From positions 1 to 52,330 of the forward strand of contig JAADJD010000008.1 of the NCBI GenBank assembly GCA_013150955.1: DNA of 52,330 nt, read 5' to 3'. How positions within the stretch are numbered: the stretch's first letter is position 1; every line of letters begins with the position of its first letter. Under the pieces are notes generated by a model. The model was not told the origin of the DNA. It saw only the letters and a list, made by a program, of their open reading frames with translations, and did not search any database. Position numbers and translations under genes: made by a program. Origin of the DNA: Calditrichota bacterium. Lineage in GTDB: Bacteria > Calditrichota > Calditrichia > RBG-13-44-9 > J042. Shown here piece after piece: positions 24,416 to 32,723 of this stretch.

Positions 24416-24484
24416 TTGAAAATGATTTTACCGGGAATTAATTTTCGAACGGTTAGTCGAATTTTGAATGGATGGTCGAATTTT
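24416..24484 (+). promoter_or_regulatory. Candidate promoter and operator of the tetR-RND operon
   Basis: TTGAAA (24416-24421) and TAATTT (24439-24444) with a 17-base spacer, followed by two direct copies of GTCGAATTTT at 24456-24465 and 24475-24484 (19-base period), the second touching the ATG. The repeats could bind the adjacent TetR-type regulator, although such proteins usually bind inverted repeats. Confidence 0.4.
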
Positions 24485-25108
24485 ATGCCCATTGCGGAAC
24501 GAAAAGAGCGGGAACGAAGCGCACGCATTAAACTCATTCTAAACGCTGCCCTGAAAACTTTTGCTGAAAAGGGCTATCACGGCACCAGCATGGATTTAAT
24601 TGCCGAATGTGCTGAGCTGGGGAAGGCGACCATTTACTACTATTTCAAAAGCAAGGACGATCTGCTACTCTCCGTGCTGGAAAACGGCATCCGGGAATTT
24701 TTCAATCTCATGGAGCAGGAATGGGATGCCACCGATGACCTGCTGGAGAAAATCCAGGCCATTCCGCGGGTTGGTGCCCGCTTCTTTGCCGATCATCCCA
24801 ATTATTTCAAGCTTTACTATTACCTAACCGCCCATCCAACCCTGAACCGAAAAGCCATGCGCCAGTTGCAACCGCTCATTCTGGAAAAGACCCGACGGAT
24901 TCAAGATCTGTTTGTGCAGGCGCAAAAAAGCGGACTCTTAAAACCTTTTCCCACAGACAAATTGGTGGAAATCTTTGGCTCGCTGGTCATGGGGTTGGGG
25001 CAGTTCCTGTATGTGGACGCCCGACCGGAAGTGCTGCAGGAAAAAGCGCGCCTGATCAACGAAATCTTCTTAAACGGTACCCGAACGACACAGGAGGACA
25101 CTACCTGA
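24485..25108 (+). CDS. TetR/AcrR-family transcriptional regulator
   Basis: A 207-residue repressor-type regulator. Residues 10-60 form the TetR helix-turn-helix: ILNAALKTFAEKGYHGTSMD, then AECAELGKATIYYYFKSKDD. The C-terminal helical domain would bind a ligand, perhaps a lipid or hydrophobic compound given the transporter context. It shares one base with the following RND gene (TGATG) and probably controls its own operon. The ATG at 24485 has no clear Shine-Dalgarno; the open frame continues upstream to 24416 into the promoter, which makes a longer protein unlikely. Confidence 0.9.
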   Translation: MPIAERKERERSARIKLILNAALKTFAEKGYHGTSMDLIAECAELGKATIYYYFKSKDDLLLSVLENGIREFFNLMEQEWDATDDLLEKIQAIPRVGARFFADHPNYFKLYYYLTAHPTLNRKAMRQLQPLILEKTRRIQDLFVQAQKSGLLKPFPTDKLVEIFGSLVMGLGQFLYVDARPEVLQEKARLINEIFLNGTRTTQEDTT

Positions 25109-27462
25109 TGTTTACTATAACCCGATGGGTGGTACGCCATCCCTGGTGGACGATCGTGCTGGTTCTGGCAGTAACCGCCGTACTGGGATACCAGATCCGC
25201 ACCATCAAAGTGGATCCGGACATTACCTCGGCACTGCCGCAGGACATTCCGGCCAAGCGGCTCTACGACCGCATGAACGAAATCTTCCCCAGCCGGGATT
25301 TTATCCTCATCGCCATCGAATCCGACTCCCTTTTTTCGGTTGAGGTGATCCAGCACCTGTACCGCATCACCCGCCAGCTGGAAGACATGCCAGATGTGTA
25401 CACCGTGATGAGCCCCACCAACGTGAAGGTCATTCGTGGCACAGAAAGCGGCATGGAAGTACGGGAGATTCTGGAGGAACCGCCCCAAACGGCACAGGAG
25501 GTCGATGTCTACCGCCAGACGCTTTTTCACAGCGATCTGCCCATCGAGAATCTCATTTCCAGAGATGGACGCATGGCCGGGATCATGGTGTTCCTGAAAA
25601 ACACCATTAAGCCCGAAGATGCCGCGGATCAGATTCTCCAGTTCTTTGAGCAACAACAGTTGCCCTTCAACTATTACATCACCGGAAAGCCCGTGCTGAC
25701 GTATTACCTGGGCCGTGGCATGGCCAGGGATATGGGCATTCTGTTTCCGCTGGTTATCCTGATCATTATTGTGATCCTGTGGATCAGCTTTCGGTCGTTT
25801 CGGGGCGTGCTGTTGCCCCTGTTCATCGTCATTAGCAGTGTGATTTGCACCATCGGGCTGATGGCTATCTTCGGGGTACCCATCAGCCATTCCACCAACA
25901 TGCTCCCCATTTTGCTGGCCTCCATTGCCGTGGCGGATGGCATCCACATTCTCAACCGCTACTTTGAACACGCCCAGCACAGCCGACGATCGAAGGACAC
26001 GGTGCTGGCGGTCATGAAGGAACTCAATGCTCCGGTCATCATCACCTCCATTACCACATCGTTTGGTTTCCTGGCGTTGAACACCTCCCATGTGGGGTCG
26101 GTGGGAGAACTGGGCATTTTCACGGCGGTAGGGGTCATGATTGCGATGGTGTTCTCGTTAACCTTTCTCCCGGCAACGCTATCGCTCCTGAAAATTCCCG
26201 AAAAAATCCGCGAACACAAACGGCGCAGCTTGCTCAGTCGCCTGGCCATTGGATACGCCAATTTGCTCATACGGCATCGTCCCCTGGCCATGGGATTCGT
26301 GATCGCAGTCGTCTTATTTGCCATTCTGGGGTTTCCGCAAATCCACCTGGAAAACAACACCATCAGCAATTTTCCGGAAGATCATCCCGCGCGGCTGGCG
26401 TTTGAGAAGGTGAATCAAAACTTTGCCGGTACCACCTTCCTGGCGGTCATGGTCGAAGGCGACAGTGCCGGACAGATTAAAGAACCACGGGTTCTGCGCG
26501 ACATGGTACAGCTGGAAGCGTTTCTGAAATCCCTTCCGCACGTGGGTGCCACCCTTTCCATCGCGGATTTCATCAAACGCATGAACAAGGTGATGCACGC
26601 CGATTCTGAAGCCTACAATCGCATCCCTGACGATACCGTGGAAGCCATCGGGTATGAATGGGTGGAAAGAAATGGCCGCTGGGTGGAGGTGCCGGTAAAA
26701 TTCAAAGTCCCCGGCCGCGAACTGGTCGCCCAGTACCTGCAACTGTACGAAATGTCCAGCAAACCGGATGATTTTGCCAATCTGGTGGATTACCAGTATC
26801 AGACGGCTCGCATCAATGCATTCATCGATACGGAGTCCGCCAATGTGTTGCGCGAAATTGAACAAAAGACCCGCGCTTTCATTGCGGAAAATTTCCACAG
26901 CGCGCGGGTGGAATTAACCGGAACATCACAGCTTTTCCTGGCCATTAACGATCTGGTCGTGGGCGGACAGTTCTGGAGCATTCTGGCGTCGCTGTTTCTG
27001 GTCACGCTGGTCACCACCCTTTCCTTTCGATCTGTTACCATTGGATTATTCAATGCCATTCCCCTGCTCTTTGCCATGATTTTCAACTTTGGATTTATGG
27101 GATGGACAGGCACTTACCTGAACATCGTGACCATGTTAACCTCTTCCATCGCCATCGGCGTTGGGGTGGATTATGCCGTGCACTTCATCCATCGCTACCA
27201 GATGGAACTGGCCATGATGTCCGAAGAAGAAAGTCTCCGGGTGACCATGGTGGAAGCCGGCGTACCCATCGTTCTCAATGCATTAACCGTGGGATTGGGC
27301 TTTGCGGTGATGATGTTTTCCATCTTTGCCGGCGTGCAAAATATGGGCATGCTCATCACCCTGGCCATGTTTACTACCTGTTTTGGTGCCATTACCATTT
27401 TACCGGTCATCTTCTTAACCTTTAAACCCCAGGTGCTGAAAAAGAAGGAGATTCCCCAATGA
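25108..27462 (+). CDS. RND/MMPL-family inner-membrane transporter
   Basis: A 784-residue transporter of the HpnN/MmpL-like RND branch. It has the internal duplication of the family: membrane helix 1 (about 14-33), a periplasmic domain, a block of five helices (about 203-365), a second single helix (about 393-412), a second periplasmic domain and a final block (about 615-780). Motifs ILLASIAVADGIHILNRYFE and SSIAIGVGVDYAVHFIHRYQ are the paired helix-4 regions that carry the proton-relay acidic residues. No adaptor (HlyD-type) or TolC gene is present; instead a LolA-like and a barrel gene follow, suggesting lipid export. GGAGG lies 9 bases before the ATG. Confidence 0.92.
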   Translation: MFTITRWVVRHPWWTIVLVLAVTAVLGYQIRTIKVDPDITSALPQDIPAKRLYDRMNEIFPSRDFILIAIESDSLFSVEVIQHLYRITRQLEDMPDVYTVMSPTNVKVIRGTESGMEVREILEEPPQTAQEVDVYRQTLFHSDLPIENLISRDGRMAGIMVFLKNTIKPEDAADQILQFFEQQQLPFNYYITGKPVLTYYLGRGMARDMGILFPLVILIIIVILWISFRSFRGVLLPLFIVISSVICTIGLMAIFGVPISHSTNMLPILLASIAVADGIHILNRYFEHAQHSRRSKDTVLAVMKELNAPVIITSITTSFGFLALNTSHVGSVGELGIFTAVGVMIAMVFSLTFLPATLSLLKIPEKIREHKRRSLLSRLAIGYANLLIRHRPLAMGFVIAVVLFAILGFPQIHLENNTISNFPEDHPARLAFEKVNQNFAGTTFLAVMVEGDSAGQIKEPRVLRDMVQLEAFLKSLPHVGATLSIADFIKRMNKVMHADSEAYNRIPDDTVEAIGYEWVERNGRWVEVPVKFKVPGRELVAQYLQLYEMSSKPDDFANLVDYQYQTARINAFIDTESANVLREIEQKTRAFIAENFHSARVELTGTSQLFLAINDLVVGGQFWSILASLFLVTLVTTLSFRSVTIGLFNAIPLLFAMIFNFGFMGWTGTYLNIVTMLTSSIAIGVGVDYAVHFIHRYQMELAMMSEEESLRVTMVEAGVPIVLNALTVGLGFAVMMFSIFAGVQNMGMLITLAMFTTCFGAITILPVIFLTFKPQVLKKKEIPQ

Positions 27463-28250
27463 TCATAAAACGCATACTTATCCTGATTGGCATGGGTTTG
27501 ATTTGGCTGGCAACGGCCTCGAGTGCGCAGGAACTTTCCGGACGGGAAATTATGGAGAAAGCCCTGCACAAGACCACCTGGAAGGACATGCAGGCCGATG
27601 TCACCCTGATTTTACAGAATCCCCGCGGGGAACAGCGGGTACGTAAAATTAAAATGTTCAGCCGGAAGCGCACGGAAAACGAAAGCGACATGCTCATGCG
27701 ATTCATCTCTCCCCCCGACGTACGCAATACTGCCTTTCTGATCATCGAACACGCCGACGGCGATGATGAACGCTACCTGTACCTTCCCGCACTACGACGG
27801 GTCAAGCGGATTGCATCCAGCGGTAAAGGTGGAAATTTCATGTCATCGGATTTTTCGTACTACGACATCGGTCGGCCCAAACTGAACGACTGGACATACA
27901 GGCGGTTGCCAGACGAAGTTGTTGAAGGCTTCGATTGTTACAAGATCGAATGTCTACCGGCATCACCAGAGATTTCGCGGGACACCGGGTACAACAAAAT
28001 CATTCGCTGGATTCGAAAAGACATTCTGGTTACCGTCCAATCTCATTATTTTGACCGCGGTAATCGCTTATGGAAAATTTTAACCGTGCCCGCAGTGGAA
28101 GAAATCAACGGCGTGTGGTTTCAAACTGATCTGGTGATGCAAGACGTCCAGACAAACCATCGCAGCGAGATGAAATTTGAAAATATAAAGGTGAACGTTA
28201 ATCTTCCGCCCAGATTTTTTAGCGTGCGCTATTTACAACGTGTGTGGTAA
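27459..28250 (+). CDS. LolA-like outer membrane lipoprotein-sorting family protein
   Basis: A 263-residue periplasmic protein with a signal peptide (about 1-24, ending TASSAQ) and the PF17131-type LolA-like half-barrel: the pattern ADVTLILQNPRGEQRVRKIK, then MLMRFISPPDVRNTAFLII, YLYLPALRRVKRIASSGKGG, FMSSDFSYYDIG. These proteins bind lipid or acyl chains and recur next to MMPL transporters. Its ATG overlaps the RND stop codon by four bases (ATGA), strong evidence for coupled expression. It is not the canonical LolA, as no lolCDE is near. Inferred to ferry the lipid from the RND pump towards the outer membrane. Confidence 0.88.
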   Translation: MIIKRILILIGMGLIWLATASSAQELSGREIMEKALHKTTWKDMQADVTLILQNPRGEQRVRKIKMFSRKRTENESDMLMRFISPPDVRNTAFLIIEHADGDDERYLYLPALRRVKRIASSGKGGNFMSSDFSYYDIGRPKLNDWTYRRLPDEVVEGFDCYKIECLPASPEISRDTGYNKIIRWIRKDILVTVQSHYFDRGNRLWKILTVPAVEEINGVWFQTDLVMQDVQTNHRSEMKFENIKVNVNLPPRFFSVRYLQRVW

Positions 28251-28287
28251 TCGCAGATTCCTTTACCCAATCGACGGAGAAGCATCC

Positions 28288-29541
28288 ATGAAGAGGGGCA
28301 TTTTTTTCCTTGCATTCGTTTTTTTGATTGGTGCCGCAACTGATGGAGCCCGCGCGCAAGTTCAGATTGGTGGCTATGTAAAAAGTTTTGTTTATCCCAA
28401 TTTACGGGCGCCTTATGAACTGGATCGGCTGGGTTCCCGATTGCAATTGACCTTTTCCCGACCATTTAGCGATCGGGGAGCGCTGTTTGCTGCCTTTAAT
28501 TTTAATTACGATGCCCGACAGGCGGCCAGTAACGGCTGGAGAAATCGGCAGACGGGATTAACCATTTATCCGGTAGAAGCCTACCTGGATTTGTATTTTA
28601 AAACCCTGGATGTCCGCATCGGGAACCAATTCATCCTCTGGGGAATAACCGACTGGATTAATCCTACAGACAACATTAATCCCTGGGACTATTTGAACAT
28701 CACCGCAGAAATAGAAGACTATCGGGTTCCTGTCTGGGCGGCCAGAGTCCACGTGTACCTGGGGGACTGGACAATTGAGGGGGTGTGGGTTCCCGAATTT
28801 CAGCCGCATCGGCTGCCGGACCCTGAAGGGGTAACCATCCGTCAGTTTGTTCGCCTTCCAAAATTATCTTTCTTTCAGGGGGGCACCCGTATTGCCCTTC
28901 CCTTCCGAATCATCAACGTTTCGCTAAGCTATTACCAGGGATATGATAAATGGCCCACTTATCAAGCGCCTCAATTTCAGCCACGTTACGGTACCAACAT
29001 CGCCCTGGAAAAAAAATACTTCTGGGTACAGATATTTGGTGCGGACTTCGTGACCACTTTCGGGAAATTTGCCCTGAAAGGGGAAGGCGCGTACACCCTG
29101 ACGGAAGATAAAGACGGCAACGATCCGACGATTCGCAATCCACAGTTACAATACGTGCTGGGGATTGATTATTATGCCACCGATCAACTGACCTTAAACG
29201 TCCAATTCGTGCAAACCCGACGATTTTTCTACAGGATGGATCAGGAAATCCAGGCCGCGCTCCAGATGCGGGTGGATCCGCGCAGGGTCCCGGAAGCGGT
29301 GGAAAATTCGGCTTCACTCCGAACCCAGTGGTCTCCCATAAACTTTTTCTCCCTGCAATTGATTGGCGTACTGAATTTCCGTTATCAGGATTACTTTCTT
29401 CTGCCCATCCTTACCTATGATGTGGCCGATGGCATTCGTCTTTATGCAGGGATTACCTATTTTAACGGTCCCGCATATAGCCTGTTCGGCCAAAGTAAGA
29501 CCTATTCCCGCGCCTTTGCCGAGCTGAAGTTTAATTTTTAG
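28288..29541 (+). CDS. Outer-membrane beta-barrel protein (DUF1302-like)
   Basis: A 417-residue protein with a signal peptide (about 1-24, ending in ARAQ), many alternating aromatic/polar strands, and a C-terminal phenylalanine in AFAELKFNF, the recognition signature for outer-membrane barrel assembly. The segment GNQFILWGITDWINPTDNIN resembles DUF1302-type barrels, which are often encoded next to MMPL and LolA-like genes. GGAGA lies 8 bases before the ATG at 28288; a GTG/ATG 48 bases upstream in frame would mask the signal peptide. Last gene of the tetR-RND-LolA-like operon and the probable outer-membrane step of the system. The cargo is unknown. Confidence 0.75.
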   Translation: MKRGIFFLAFVFLIGAATDGARAQVQIGGYVKSFVYPNLRAPYELDRLGSRLQLTFSRPFSDRGALFAAFNFNYDARQAASNGWRNRQTGLTIYPVEAYLDLYFKTLDVRIGNQFILWGITDWINPTDNINPWDYLNITAEIEDYRVPVWAARVHVYLGDWTIEGVWVPEFQPHRLPDPEGVTIRQFVRLPKLSFFQGGTRIALPFRIINVSLSYYQGYDKWPTYQAPQFQPRYGTNIALEKKYFWVQIFGADFVTTFGKFALKGEGAYTLTEDKDGNDPTIRNPQLQYVLGIDYYATDQLTLNVQFVQTRRFFYRMDQEIQAALQMRVDPRRVPEAVENSASLRTQWSPINFFSLQLIGVLNFRYQDYFLLPILTYDVADGIRLYAGITYFNGPAYSLFGQSKTYSRAFAELKFNF

Positions 29542-29563
29542 CGTTATCTTAAGAATGACATGA

Positions 29564-29944
29564 ATGAACCCAGATGATGCATGAGAACCACGAATGACAC
29601 GAATGAACCCAGATTAAGCTATAGCCTACGAATGACACGAATTAACACAAATAAAACCAATATAATTAATACATTGGATTGTGTCTGGATGAAAATGTGT
29701 TCCAGGGTTTATCCCAAATTATGCTTTAAACCACGAATTGCACGAATTAACACAAATAAAAACAATAAAATCCATTGATTTAGATCTGTATGAAAATTCG
29801 CTTCGAGGTTTATTCATGATTTTATTGATATTTTTTATGTTCATTCGCGTGATTCGCGGTTTAATGCATTATCTGGGTTTATTCGCGATTTTGTAGATAA
29901 TTTTTGGTTTCACTCGCGTGATTCGCGGTCTCGTGCAAATCCTG
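29564..29944. repeat. Family A cluster
   Basis: Successive left ends (AACCCAGATGATGCATGAGA, ACCCAGATTAAGCTATAGCC, TCCCAAATTATGCTTTAAAC), cores with TTGTGTCTGGATGAAAATG and GATCTGTATGAAAATTC, and right arms TTCATTCGCGTGATTCGCGG (twice). Several overlapping copies in one orientation; the last right end lies just downstream of the T9SS protein gene. Confidence 0.75.
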
Positions 29945-29984: not shown

Positions 29985-32636
29985 TTATTTCAACACCATC
30001 ATTTTTCGGGCTGCACGATACGGTCCCGCTTTCAACTGAAACACATAAACCCCACTGGCCAGATGAGACGCATCGAAGGGAATTTCATAATGTCCGGGTT
30101 TTAATACCCGATCGACTACCGTGGCCACCTTTCGTCCCAGTATATCAAAAACGGTCAGCGTAACAGGCGCTTTCCGGGGTAGATCGAACGCCAGGGTGGT
30201 TGTGGGATTAAACGGATTTGGGAAGTTGGGATACAGAACAAAGTTTTGCGGCACCGCAGGTTCTGCAGCGTACGGCACTCCGGTAATGGCATCGCCTTTT
30301 CGGAAAAGCACCAGTCCTTCATTGGCGGTACCAATCCAGCGGTTCCCTTCCTTATCAATGGTCACACTCAGTACATCGTTTTCTGGCAGTCCCGAATTTT
30401 CTTTGCGATACACCGTCCAGTTGCTCCCGTCAAACTTTACCAGGCCGCCCAACCCGTTTTGATCCCAGGTGGTGGTGGCAATCCAGACATTGCCGGAATC
30501 ATCAAAGGCAATGTCCTCGATAAAATTGGACGATAATCCCGAATTGTCCGTTGTAAACACGGTCCAGCTGGTGCCATCGAATCTGGCCAGACCAGAAGGA
30601 GTGCCGATCCACTTATGATTGGAATCATCAATGGCAATCACATTAATGGCATTATCGGGCAGTGGGGAGTTGGCGGTAGTATACACCTGCCAGGTGGCGC
30701 CATTAAAAGCGGCCAGACCGCCGGCGGTGCCCACCCATACAATTTGCGTTTCAGGTTCAACGGCCAGATCGTAGACCCGGTCGGCGGGGAGATCGGAGTT
30801 TCCGGTTGTGTAGTGAATCCAGTTTTGCCCATCGAAACTGGACAGACCGGCACTTTCGTATCCGACCCATACCAATCCGGCATCACCTGCCGCCACACAG
30901 GTCACATATCGCGATGCCAGGTCTGAATTACTGGTCCCATAAGTGTACCACTGATTTCCCTGAATGCGGGTAAGGCCATACTTTCGGGCCGCTACCCAGA
31001 TGGTGCCCGAATTGTCGATGTCCAGATCGGCAATCAAATTGGCATAATAGCTGGTATTGTAATTGTAAACAAACCAGTTAAATCCGTCGAAATTGACCAG
31101 CCCCCCACCCCAGGTGGCCAGCCATTTTTTCCCGGTTTTATCAATGATAATTTTGTTGATCCGATTGTCCGACAACTGCGAGTTTTGCGTGTTATACACA
31201 ATCCAGCGAGGCACCTGTCCGATGGCGGTATACTCATAAATCGCCGATTGCGTCCCGAAATTGTAAACCACAAACACCAGACTGGTATAGGGAGTCCCCG
31301 AATCCCCGGGACGATAGGGCGTTCCCTCCTGAACGATTTCGACATCAATCCCCGCCCCAACCTTAATCACATCGATGAAAATGTCGTCCGAAAAGGTCTG
31401 GAAGGTAATCTCAAACCCTTCGGTGTAGGCAAAACCAATGTAATCCACCGCATAAACATGCACCGTATCCCGTACCGATACATTGGGATTGATATGATAA
31501 TGGGCAAAGTGCGGTCGCTGGTTCAGGCGTTTTTTATACCCAAATTCGGGAATAATAGAGCGATCCTGGATAATGTTGGCTTTAAACCAGTACTCCAGAA
31601 GGTCAACCAGGGACCATCTTTTGGCAGTACTTAAAAATGCGCTGTCCAATCCGGCTTTCCCGTTTTCTGGATTCTGGACGATTTTTTTCAGGATGGAATC
31701 GCCCAGCTGCTCATCGTAATACAGGGTAAACAACGCCGCACGCGAATAATCCACACTGACGTTTTCACTAATATTATCCCAATCAAAAAGCGGAACATCC
31801 GTTTGACGGAAATAATGTACGGGATCGTACATGGAATAACCACAAATCTTTGCTGCAATTTCCGATAACCCTTCATTAACGAACGATAACTCATCCTTGT
31901 CATAATTATAATGGATTAAATGTTGGAGTTCATGGGCCACCGTTGGTAACACATTTTCTGCATTGCGTTTGCCCCCATTTCTATATAATCCGGGATTGGT
32001 ATCAATGTACAAAATGTCCCTTTGATTGCTTCCCGGAGCGGTGGATTGGTCACGAGGGTCAAAATACCCCAGGACGGCATTTCCTTTTAAAGTAAGACTC
32101 CACTGGTCAATGATGTCCACCAGTAGAAAATCGGTATATCCATCCCCATCGTAATTGGGCGGGTAACCCAAATACTCATTTTCCAATTCAATAATCCCTT
32201 TATAGCGATCCCGGGAATAGATAGGTGTTTCATTTTCCAGCGCATTCAAAATGGTGTCCACCAGACCCTGGGTGACCGTTTCACTCGATATTAAAAATGT
32301 ATCGGCCCATATCTGAGCAAAATTCCCTCTGGCCATCAAACGGGCATAATAAAGTCGATAGCTTTTATTTAAAAAGTCGTATACGTAAAAAGCCCTGACC
32401 GTGCCCAGGGTATCTTCGGTAACCGACGAAGTCCGATCTTTTCCGGCATCTAAAAGCATTCTTTGATACAGGGCGGGATTCTGGATGCGGGTATTCTCCA
32501 GAACGCTTTCCACAAAATCGTCTGTAATCAGGACGGTTCCACATATCCCGGATATGTTCTGGGTGCGATGGACATTGGCAATTACCAGGGAAACCATGAT
32601 AATTAAAAACCCCAGAGGTTGGATAACTCGTTTCAT
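29985..32636 (-). CDS. T9SS-secreted M30-like metalloprotease with propeller repeats
   Basis: An 883-residue exported protein. A signal peptide occupies about 1-24. A protease-like domain contains AHELQHLIHYNYDK with HELQH at 235-239 and a third-ligand candidate E255 in FVNEGLSE, the arrangement of hyicolysin-type (M30) metallopeptidases. From about 490 to 780 there are seven repeats of roughly 43 residues (pattern WVGTAGGLAAFNGATWQVYT), of the two-component-regulator-propeller type. The last 80 residues (NFPNPFNPTTTLAFDLP, LGRKVATVV, GVYVFQLKAG) form a type A sorting domain for the type IX secretion system. GGAGG precedes the ATG at 32636. Substrate is unknown; cleavage by a T9SS sortase is expected from the family. 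Confidence 0.85.
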   Translation of the reverse strand: MKRVIQPLGFLIIMVSLVIANVHRTQNISGICGTVLITDDFVESVLENTRIQNPALYQRMLLDAGKDRTSSVTEDTLGTVRAFYVYDFLNKSYRLYYARLMARGNFAQIWADTFLISSETVTQGLVDTILNALENETPIYSRDRYKGIIELENEYLGYPPNYDGDGYTDFLLVDIIDQWSLTLKGNAVLGYFDPRDQSTAPGSNQRDILYIDTNPGLYRNGGKRNAENVLPTVAHELQHLIHYNYDKDELSFVNEGLSEIAAKICGYSMYDPVHYFRQTDVPLFDWDNISENVSVDYSRAALFTLYYDEQLGDSILKKIVQNPENGKAGLDSAFLSTAKRWSLVDLLEYWFKANIIQDRSIIPEFGYKKRLNQRPHFAHYHINPNVSVRDTVHVYAVDYIGFAYTEGFEITFQTFSDDIFIDVIKVGAGIDVEIVQEGTPYRPGDSGTPYTSLVFVVYNFGTQSAIYEYTAIGQVPRWIVYNTQNSQLSDNRINKIIIDKTGKKWLATWGGGLVNFDGFNWFVYNYNTSYYANLIADLDIDNSGTIWVAARKYGLTRIQGNQWYTYGTSNSDLASRYVTCVAAGDAGLVWVGYESAGLSSFDGQNWIHYTTGNSDLPADRVYDLAVEPETQIVWVGTAGGLAAFNGATWQVYTTANSPLPDNAINVIAIDDSNHKWIGTPSGLARFDGTSWTVFTTDNSGLSSNFIEDIAFDDSGNVWIATTTWDQNGLGGLVKFDGSNWTVYRKENSGLPENDVLSVTIDKEGNRWIGTANEGLVLFRKGDAITGVPYAAEPAVPQNFVLYPNFPNPFNPTTTLAFDLPRKAPVTLTVFDILGRKVATVVDRVLKPGHYEIPFDASHLASGVYVFQLKAGPYRAARKMMVLK

Positions 32637-32723
32637 GGGCGTCCTCCTGGTTGAGTATTTGAATCTTGCTGCTGTGAAATATTCGGAATTATTGCTCATT
32701 TAATTACATATTTTTCAGTTTAT

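Follow-up and report, generated by a model that had tools for sequence, protein, structure and literature searches.

Which route might a hydrophobic molecule take across the periplasm when its pump is encoded together with a LolA-like carrier and an outer-membrane barrel, and which molecule would this be? The question is raised by positions 24416-29541 of the window, i.e., the whole stretch of 52,330 nucleotides analyzed here. Six-frame ORFs, reading of the sequence and family scans reveal four co-directional genes in the order TetR, MMPL, LolA-like and barrel. The features of this region are:

24444..24461, no strand: palindromic operator (predicted) TTCGAACGGTTAGTCGAA, 41 bp upstream of the tetR ATG
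24464..24480, no strand: probable second, degenerate operator copy TTGAATGGATGGTCGAA, recognized by eye; a similar repeat lies at the same position in the orthologues G001 and G003
24485..25108, plus strand: TetR-family regulator (PF00440, E=4e-18; PDB relatives RutR and fatty-acid regulators)
25108..27462, plus strand: MMPL-type RND pump of the inner membrane (nearest to HAE3), 784 aa with 12 TM and two domains in the periplasm (PF03176, E=5e-44)
27459..28250, plus strand: periplasmic LolA-like carrier (PF17131, E=3e-56)
28288..29541, plus strand: outer-membrane beta-barrel of the DUF1302 family with signal peptide and C-terminal Phe (PF06980, E=3e-12)

Gene set, junctions and operator

The family scans bear out the four components named in the initial annotation, which are a TetR regulator, an RND pump of the MMPL/HpnN class, a carrier with LolA fold and an outer-membrane barrel. 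The four-gene operon is real and not a chance arrangement, because gene set and order repeat at two other sites of the genome and in most relatives. Tight coupling by gene overlaps had been proposed for the entire operon. It is found at the TetR/MMPL junction (TGATG at 25106) and the MMPL/LolA junction (ATGA at 27459) but does not extend to the fourth gene, which follows the carrier after a gap of 37 nt and whose ATG at 28288 opens directly into the signal peptide. Judging from the sequence, this ATG is the probable barrel start and GTG 28240 an unlikely one. Likewise, tetR probably starts at ATG 24485 and is unlikely to start at the more upstream TTG 24416, because the conserved operator (24444-24461) lies between the two codons. 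Family scans of the operon genes detect neither an HlyD/MFP-type adaptor nor TolC, which sets the operon apart from HAE1 tripartite efflux pumps. The earlier statement that TolC is missing holds for the operon only, as TolC-type (OEP) genes are located elsewhere in the genome.

Directly in front of tetR, the window and seven orthologous loci from several genera carry the motif TTCGA-N8-TCGAA; Melioribacteraceae (L087) and a Deltaproteobacteria MAG (L092) are among these loci. The motif is absent from all of the approximately 60 other tetR upstream regions examined (in this comparison, L085 is a duplicate of L050). In the 4.07-Mb genome, the pattern occurs just twice. A regulon search with the operator yielded no second convincing site genome-wide and hence no hint on the cargo. 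In the genomes of relatives, the loose pattern is about as frequent as a reversed-pattern control, so the informative feature is the position upstream of tetR only. Conservation at this position combined with rarity in the genome suggests that local autoregulation of the operon by TetR is likely, and a wider regulon is not indicated. Scans for sigma-70 promoters and terminators gave results at or below chance.

The assignment of the pump to the HpnN/MmpL type is supported at the level of structural class. The AlphaFold2 model (pLDDT 86, pTM 0.79) comprises 12 membrane helices and two periplasmic domains, and Foldseek places it nearest to MmpL4/MmpL5 (TM 0.76/0.81), followed by HpnN, NPC1/NPC1L1 and MmpL3. 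HpnN and MmpL3-MmpL5 share the pump fold (TM-scores 0.70-0.76), whereas their partners differ. The nearest NCBIfam model is TIGR00921 (HAE3) with 309 bits, which is under its cut-off of 352 bits, and the HpnN equivalog models score 181 bits (TIGR03480, cut-off 752) and 102 bits (NF052374, cut-off 1100). Asp688 and His692 in TM10 are invariant in 67/67 relatives with residues at these positions. Asp277 in TM4 is kept in 32 of 68 relatives and elsewhere replaced, mostly by Tyr. Given this replacement in about half of the relatives, proton coupling may depend on TM10 alone.

The carrier matches PF17131 with 190 bits and DUF1329 (PF07044) with 32.6 bits, above the cut-off of 23.1. The window carrier has no match to PF03548, the canonical LolA family, genes of which are located elsewhere in the genome. 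Its signal peptide ends near ...ASSAQ and is not followed by a lipobox. The best PDB match is P. gingivalis LolA3 (9tp6, E=7e-37), with 3bk5 and 4z48 as further matches; LolA3 has a groove that is hydrophobic, and its binding to LolB is very weak (PMC13103446). The barrel reaches 46.9 bits with PF06980 (cut-off 23.2). Its AlphaFold2 model (pLDDT 85, pTM 0.80) has about 18 strands by our count and resembles AlgE best, followed by porins, and is not TolC-like according to Foldseek. Current annotation is misleading for both proteins, as it assigns the carrier to lipoprotein sorting and lists the barrel as a DUF.

Distribution, paralogues and the ABC variant

Among 40 relatives, pump and barrel are encoded on the carrier's strand within 6 kb at 27 of the 67 carrier loci, and most of the remaining loci represent an ABC version (see below) or are situated at the ends of contigs. 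Window-type orthologues (pump identity of at least 60%, or a matching carrier/barrel on another contig) are present in about 10 of the 40 relative genomes, and the operon is thus accessory. Together with TetR control, this patchy distribution points to an accessory, inducible role.

At least 584 relatives were retrieved from the species contigs of GTDB. Judged from their record titles, the best 80 of these belong to Calditrichota, Bacteroidota/Ignavibacteria, Neomarinimicrobiota, Spirochaetota, several proteobacterial classes, Campylobacterota, Cloacimonadota, Aminicenantes, Fibrobacterota and others, with a pump nearby in 69/80 and a barrel nearby in 69/80, in agreement with the initial remark that the three families co-occur elsewhere. 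Despite its wide occurrence in diderm bacteria, the cassette has hardly been studied, and a literature search for the exact TetR-MMPL-PF17131-barrel set under its Pfam names returned little. Across 68 cassettes, pump, carrier and barrel yield distance matrices that correlate with coefficients of 0.93-0.95 (permuted at most 0.25; TetR about 0.81, permuted at most 0.29 with TetR included), values that are inflated by shared species history, which explains part of the signal. In Azohydromonas caseinilytica (L128:101-9006), pump and carrier are fused into one protein of 1044 aa, followed by a DUF1302-like barrel. The fusion is preceded by an NRPS-like gene, recognized by reading of its translation, which suggests a (lipo)peptide-type cargo in this organism. 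At the sequence level, the fusion and the cassette-wide co-inheritance support that the parts work together. A three-compartment transport cassette composed of inner-membrane pump, periplasmic carrier and outer-membrane barrel with a cognate TetR is supported.

The genome harbors two further complete TetR-MMPL-LolA-barrel operons (contigs C50 and C59), and the three paralogous clades within one class each keep their own cognate set. The TetR encoded on C50 has a FadR-like (YsiA) ligand domain. A predicted beta-hairpin in the second periplasmic domain (pump residues 510-535) is present in the window-type pump and missing from the C50-type pump; it is possible that this is a partner- or cargo-specific feature. 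As a separate observation, contig C21 encodes an orphan MMPL pump of 978 aa without carrier or barrel (L017:5410-8346), which is also found in the same-genus relative L059.

On contig C14 (L016:933-6816), a member of the carrier family and a barrel flank two FtsX/MacB-type permeases and an ABC ATPase, and a tetR gene is oriented divergently. The C14-type barrel has no Pfam match and is homologous to the window-type barrel (hhalign 99.8%, E 1.2e-27). This layout is repeated in at least eight relatives (L069-L075, L083, L084). As the carrier family is the same and the barrels are homologous, the carrier and barrel families are paired with either an RND or an ABC engine, of which the former is presumably proton-driven and the latter ATP-driven. 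We tentatively propose, at somewhat less than even chances, that the PF17131 carrier and the DUF1302-like barrel constitute a general module for delivery from the periplasm to the surface, for which the inner-membrane engine (MmpL-type RND or FtsX/MacB-type ABC) is interchangeable even within one genome. If true, such a module would represent a class of envelope-spanning transport in many phyla that is distinct from adaptor-TolC, Lpt, Lol and Mla systems. Of our results, the exchange of RND and ABC engines around one carrier/barrel pair is the most interesting and the most worth following. The idea is directly testable, since three paralogous operons with separate TetR genes and an ABC-driven version are available in one genome.

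Direction of transport and cargo

The operon probably encodes an exporter, controlled by TetR and driven by protons, for a hydrophobic or amphiphilic compound that travels via a shuttle carrier. This is the best reading by analogy and follows the proposal for AmeABCD of Castellaniella defragrans, a putative exporter of monoterpenes and Nile Red, the deletion of which decreases monoterpene tolerance and increases Nile Red accumulation (PMC6394551). We infer the contacts between the parts, the order of hand-over, the direction, the proton coupling, the repression and the lipid nature of the cargo along the following lines. Without ligand, TetR would occupy the palindrome at 24444-24461 and repress the operon, and ligand binding would release it. 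The MmpL-like pump would lift the cargo from the inner membrane into its periplasmic domain, with proton flow via the TM10 Asp/His pair, and deliver it to the docked LolA-like carrier, which might then shield the greasy part of the cargo during the crossing of the periplasm and give it to the DUF1302 barrel, which would release it into or through the outer membrane. If this hand-over model is right, greasy molecules have a further route across the periplasm that needs no continuous conduit. The mechanism outlined in the initial annotation is therefore plausible, while its emphasis on a "complete lipid exporter" exceeds the evidence.

AmeABCD is the closest experimental relative and shares a periplasmic protein of the LolA superfamily (DUF1329), a DUF1302 outer-membrane protein and the lack of HlyD/TolC with the window operon; its HAE3 RND pump has a probable counterpart in the window pump, for which HAE3 is the nearest model. 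In contrast, AmeABCD contains a fourth part, AmeC (COG4447, YCF48-like), and sits in a monoterpene island, whereas in the window operon a separate TetR is encoded and the carrier belongs to PF17131, with a weak match to DUF1329. As AmeC or another YCF48-like gene is absent from the four operon genes, we class the operon as working like the Ame lineage and not as a member of it. In P. putida (PP_0765/PP_0766/PP_2018/PP_2019), a DUF1302 barrel, a DUF1329 carrier and an RND pump are likewise present, but they are encoded at two separate loci with an extra periplasmic protein; co-folding of PP_0766/2019/0765 with AlphaFold predicts weak to likely contacts of the carrier with pump and barrel, and the system is required for growth on Tween 20 (PMC10866462). 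Thalassolituus encodes an MMPL-LolA fusion (TOL_3187) and an adjacent porin, which are induced on long-chain (C28) alkane; the fusion of pump and carrier differs from the window operon (PMC6304351). In P. gingivalis, PG1178-PG1181 form one operon with TetR, MMPL, an outer-membrane lipoprotein-sorting protein and a hypothetical protein as the fourth gene; this operon has neighboring ABC genes and is among the genes most induced under iron/haemin limitation (PMC10434189; PMC10470040). In ApeLMN of aryl-polyene clusters, an RND pump and a LolA-like carrier together serve a cargo of lipid type, but the set is located within biosynthesis genes and has a LolB-like acceptor in place of the barrel (PMC8253772).

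Within the exporter reading, two cargo classes have to be weighed. Detoxifying efflux, be it of hydrophobic xenobiotics or of surplus fatty-acyl compounds, is a possibility that we hold tentatively. It would fit the shared families of AmeA and AmeB and the HAE3-like pump, the TetR in front, the FadR-like ligand domain of the C50 paralogue and the accessory distribution, whereas the missing AmeC speaks against it. In addition, AmeABCD, as a proposed exporter of apolar monoterpenes, would detoxify rather than build the envelope. The narrower proposal of the initial annotation, an envelope-lipid exporter, is conceivable and hardly less likely than detoxification. In the manner of HpnN, MmpL/LppX or ApeLMN, it would equip the outer membrane with a specific structural lipid or a lipid-linked pigment. 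This proposal is favored by a pump fold closest to lipid and siderophore exporters, the LolA fold of the carrier, the precedent of ApeLMN (PMC8253772) and the pump-carrier fusion beside an NRPS gene, but TetR control and the presence of window-type orthologues in only about 10 of 40 relatives are less easily reconciled with it. Furthermore, no biosynthetic gene linked to the operon was found among its neighbors, and the cargo is thus not indicated from this side. Hopanoids as a specific cargo of HpnN type are unlikely, since the 99.7% complete genome yielded no squalene-hopene cyclase, and the HpnN model scores are far under the cut-offs.

Readings other than export of a small compound are considerably weaker. 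To our knowledge, the RND/MmpL pumps characterized so far all export, and the known cargo of this pump class is small lipids, not proteins. The first point argues against a retrograde system that moves a hydrophobic substrate inward. Uptake could account for the requirement of the P. putida relatives for growth on Tween 20 (PMC10866462) and the induction of the Thalassolituus relatives on C28 alkane (PMC6304351), but with the increased dye accumulation after AmeABCD deletion (PMC6394551) we consider it improbable. The second point bears on a specialized, Lol-like route for lipoproteins, in which the RND pump would feed a LolA paralogue. The LolA fold and Pfam name of the carrier as well as the FtsX/MacB-type permeases of the ABC version in the same genome are compatible with such a route. 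However, general lipoprotein sorting is unlikely as a separate canonical LolA exists, the related P. gingivalis LolA3 hardly binds LolB (PMC13103446), and deletion of F. johnsoniae lolA3, a possible PF17131 homologue, causes no phenotype (PMC11885536). Lipoprotein sorting thus appears highly improbable, and export of a hydrophobic or amphiphilic compound is the preferred reading.

Genomic neighborhood and dispersed repeats

The operon is surrounded by genes for an SAH hydrolase, a GldC-like protein, a T9SS-tailed protein and cell-division proteins. The upstream pair is conserved in the same-genus relative only and the downstream genes differ among orthologues. An attempt to deduce the cargo from these neighbors failed. 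The T9SS-tailed protein (29985-32699, minus strand) comprises 904 aa, contains propeller repeats of the two-component regulator type and carries a sorting tail for type IX secretion, and its gene adjoins ftsZ, ftsA and ftsQ.

The window further contains a dispersed repeat, CACGAATTAACACAAATAAA, with 15 matches in both orientations compared to 0.01 expected:

29547-29937; 726, 4341, 4478, 5009, 6154, 7219, 8284, 9809, 11684, 17387, 32912, 32960, both orientations: CACGAATTAACACAAATAAA-type repeats

The copies that follow the operon form long imperfect inverted repeats, and a comparable stretch is located upstream of tetR in L015.
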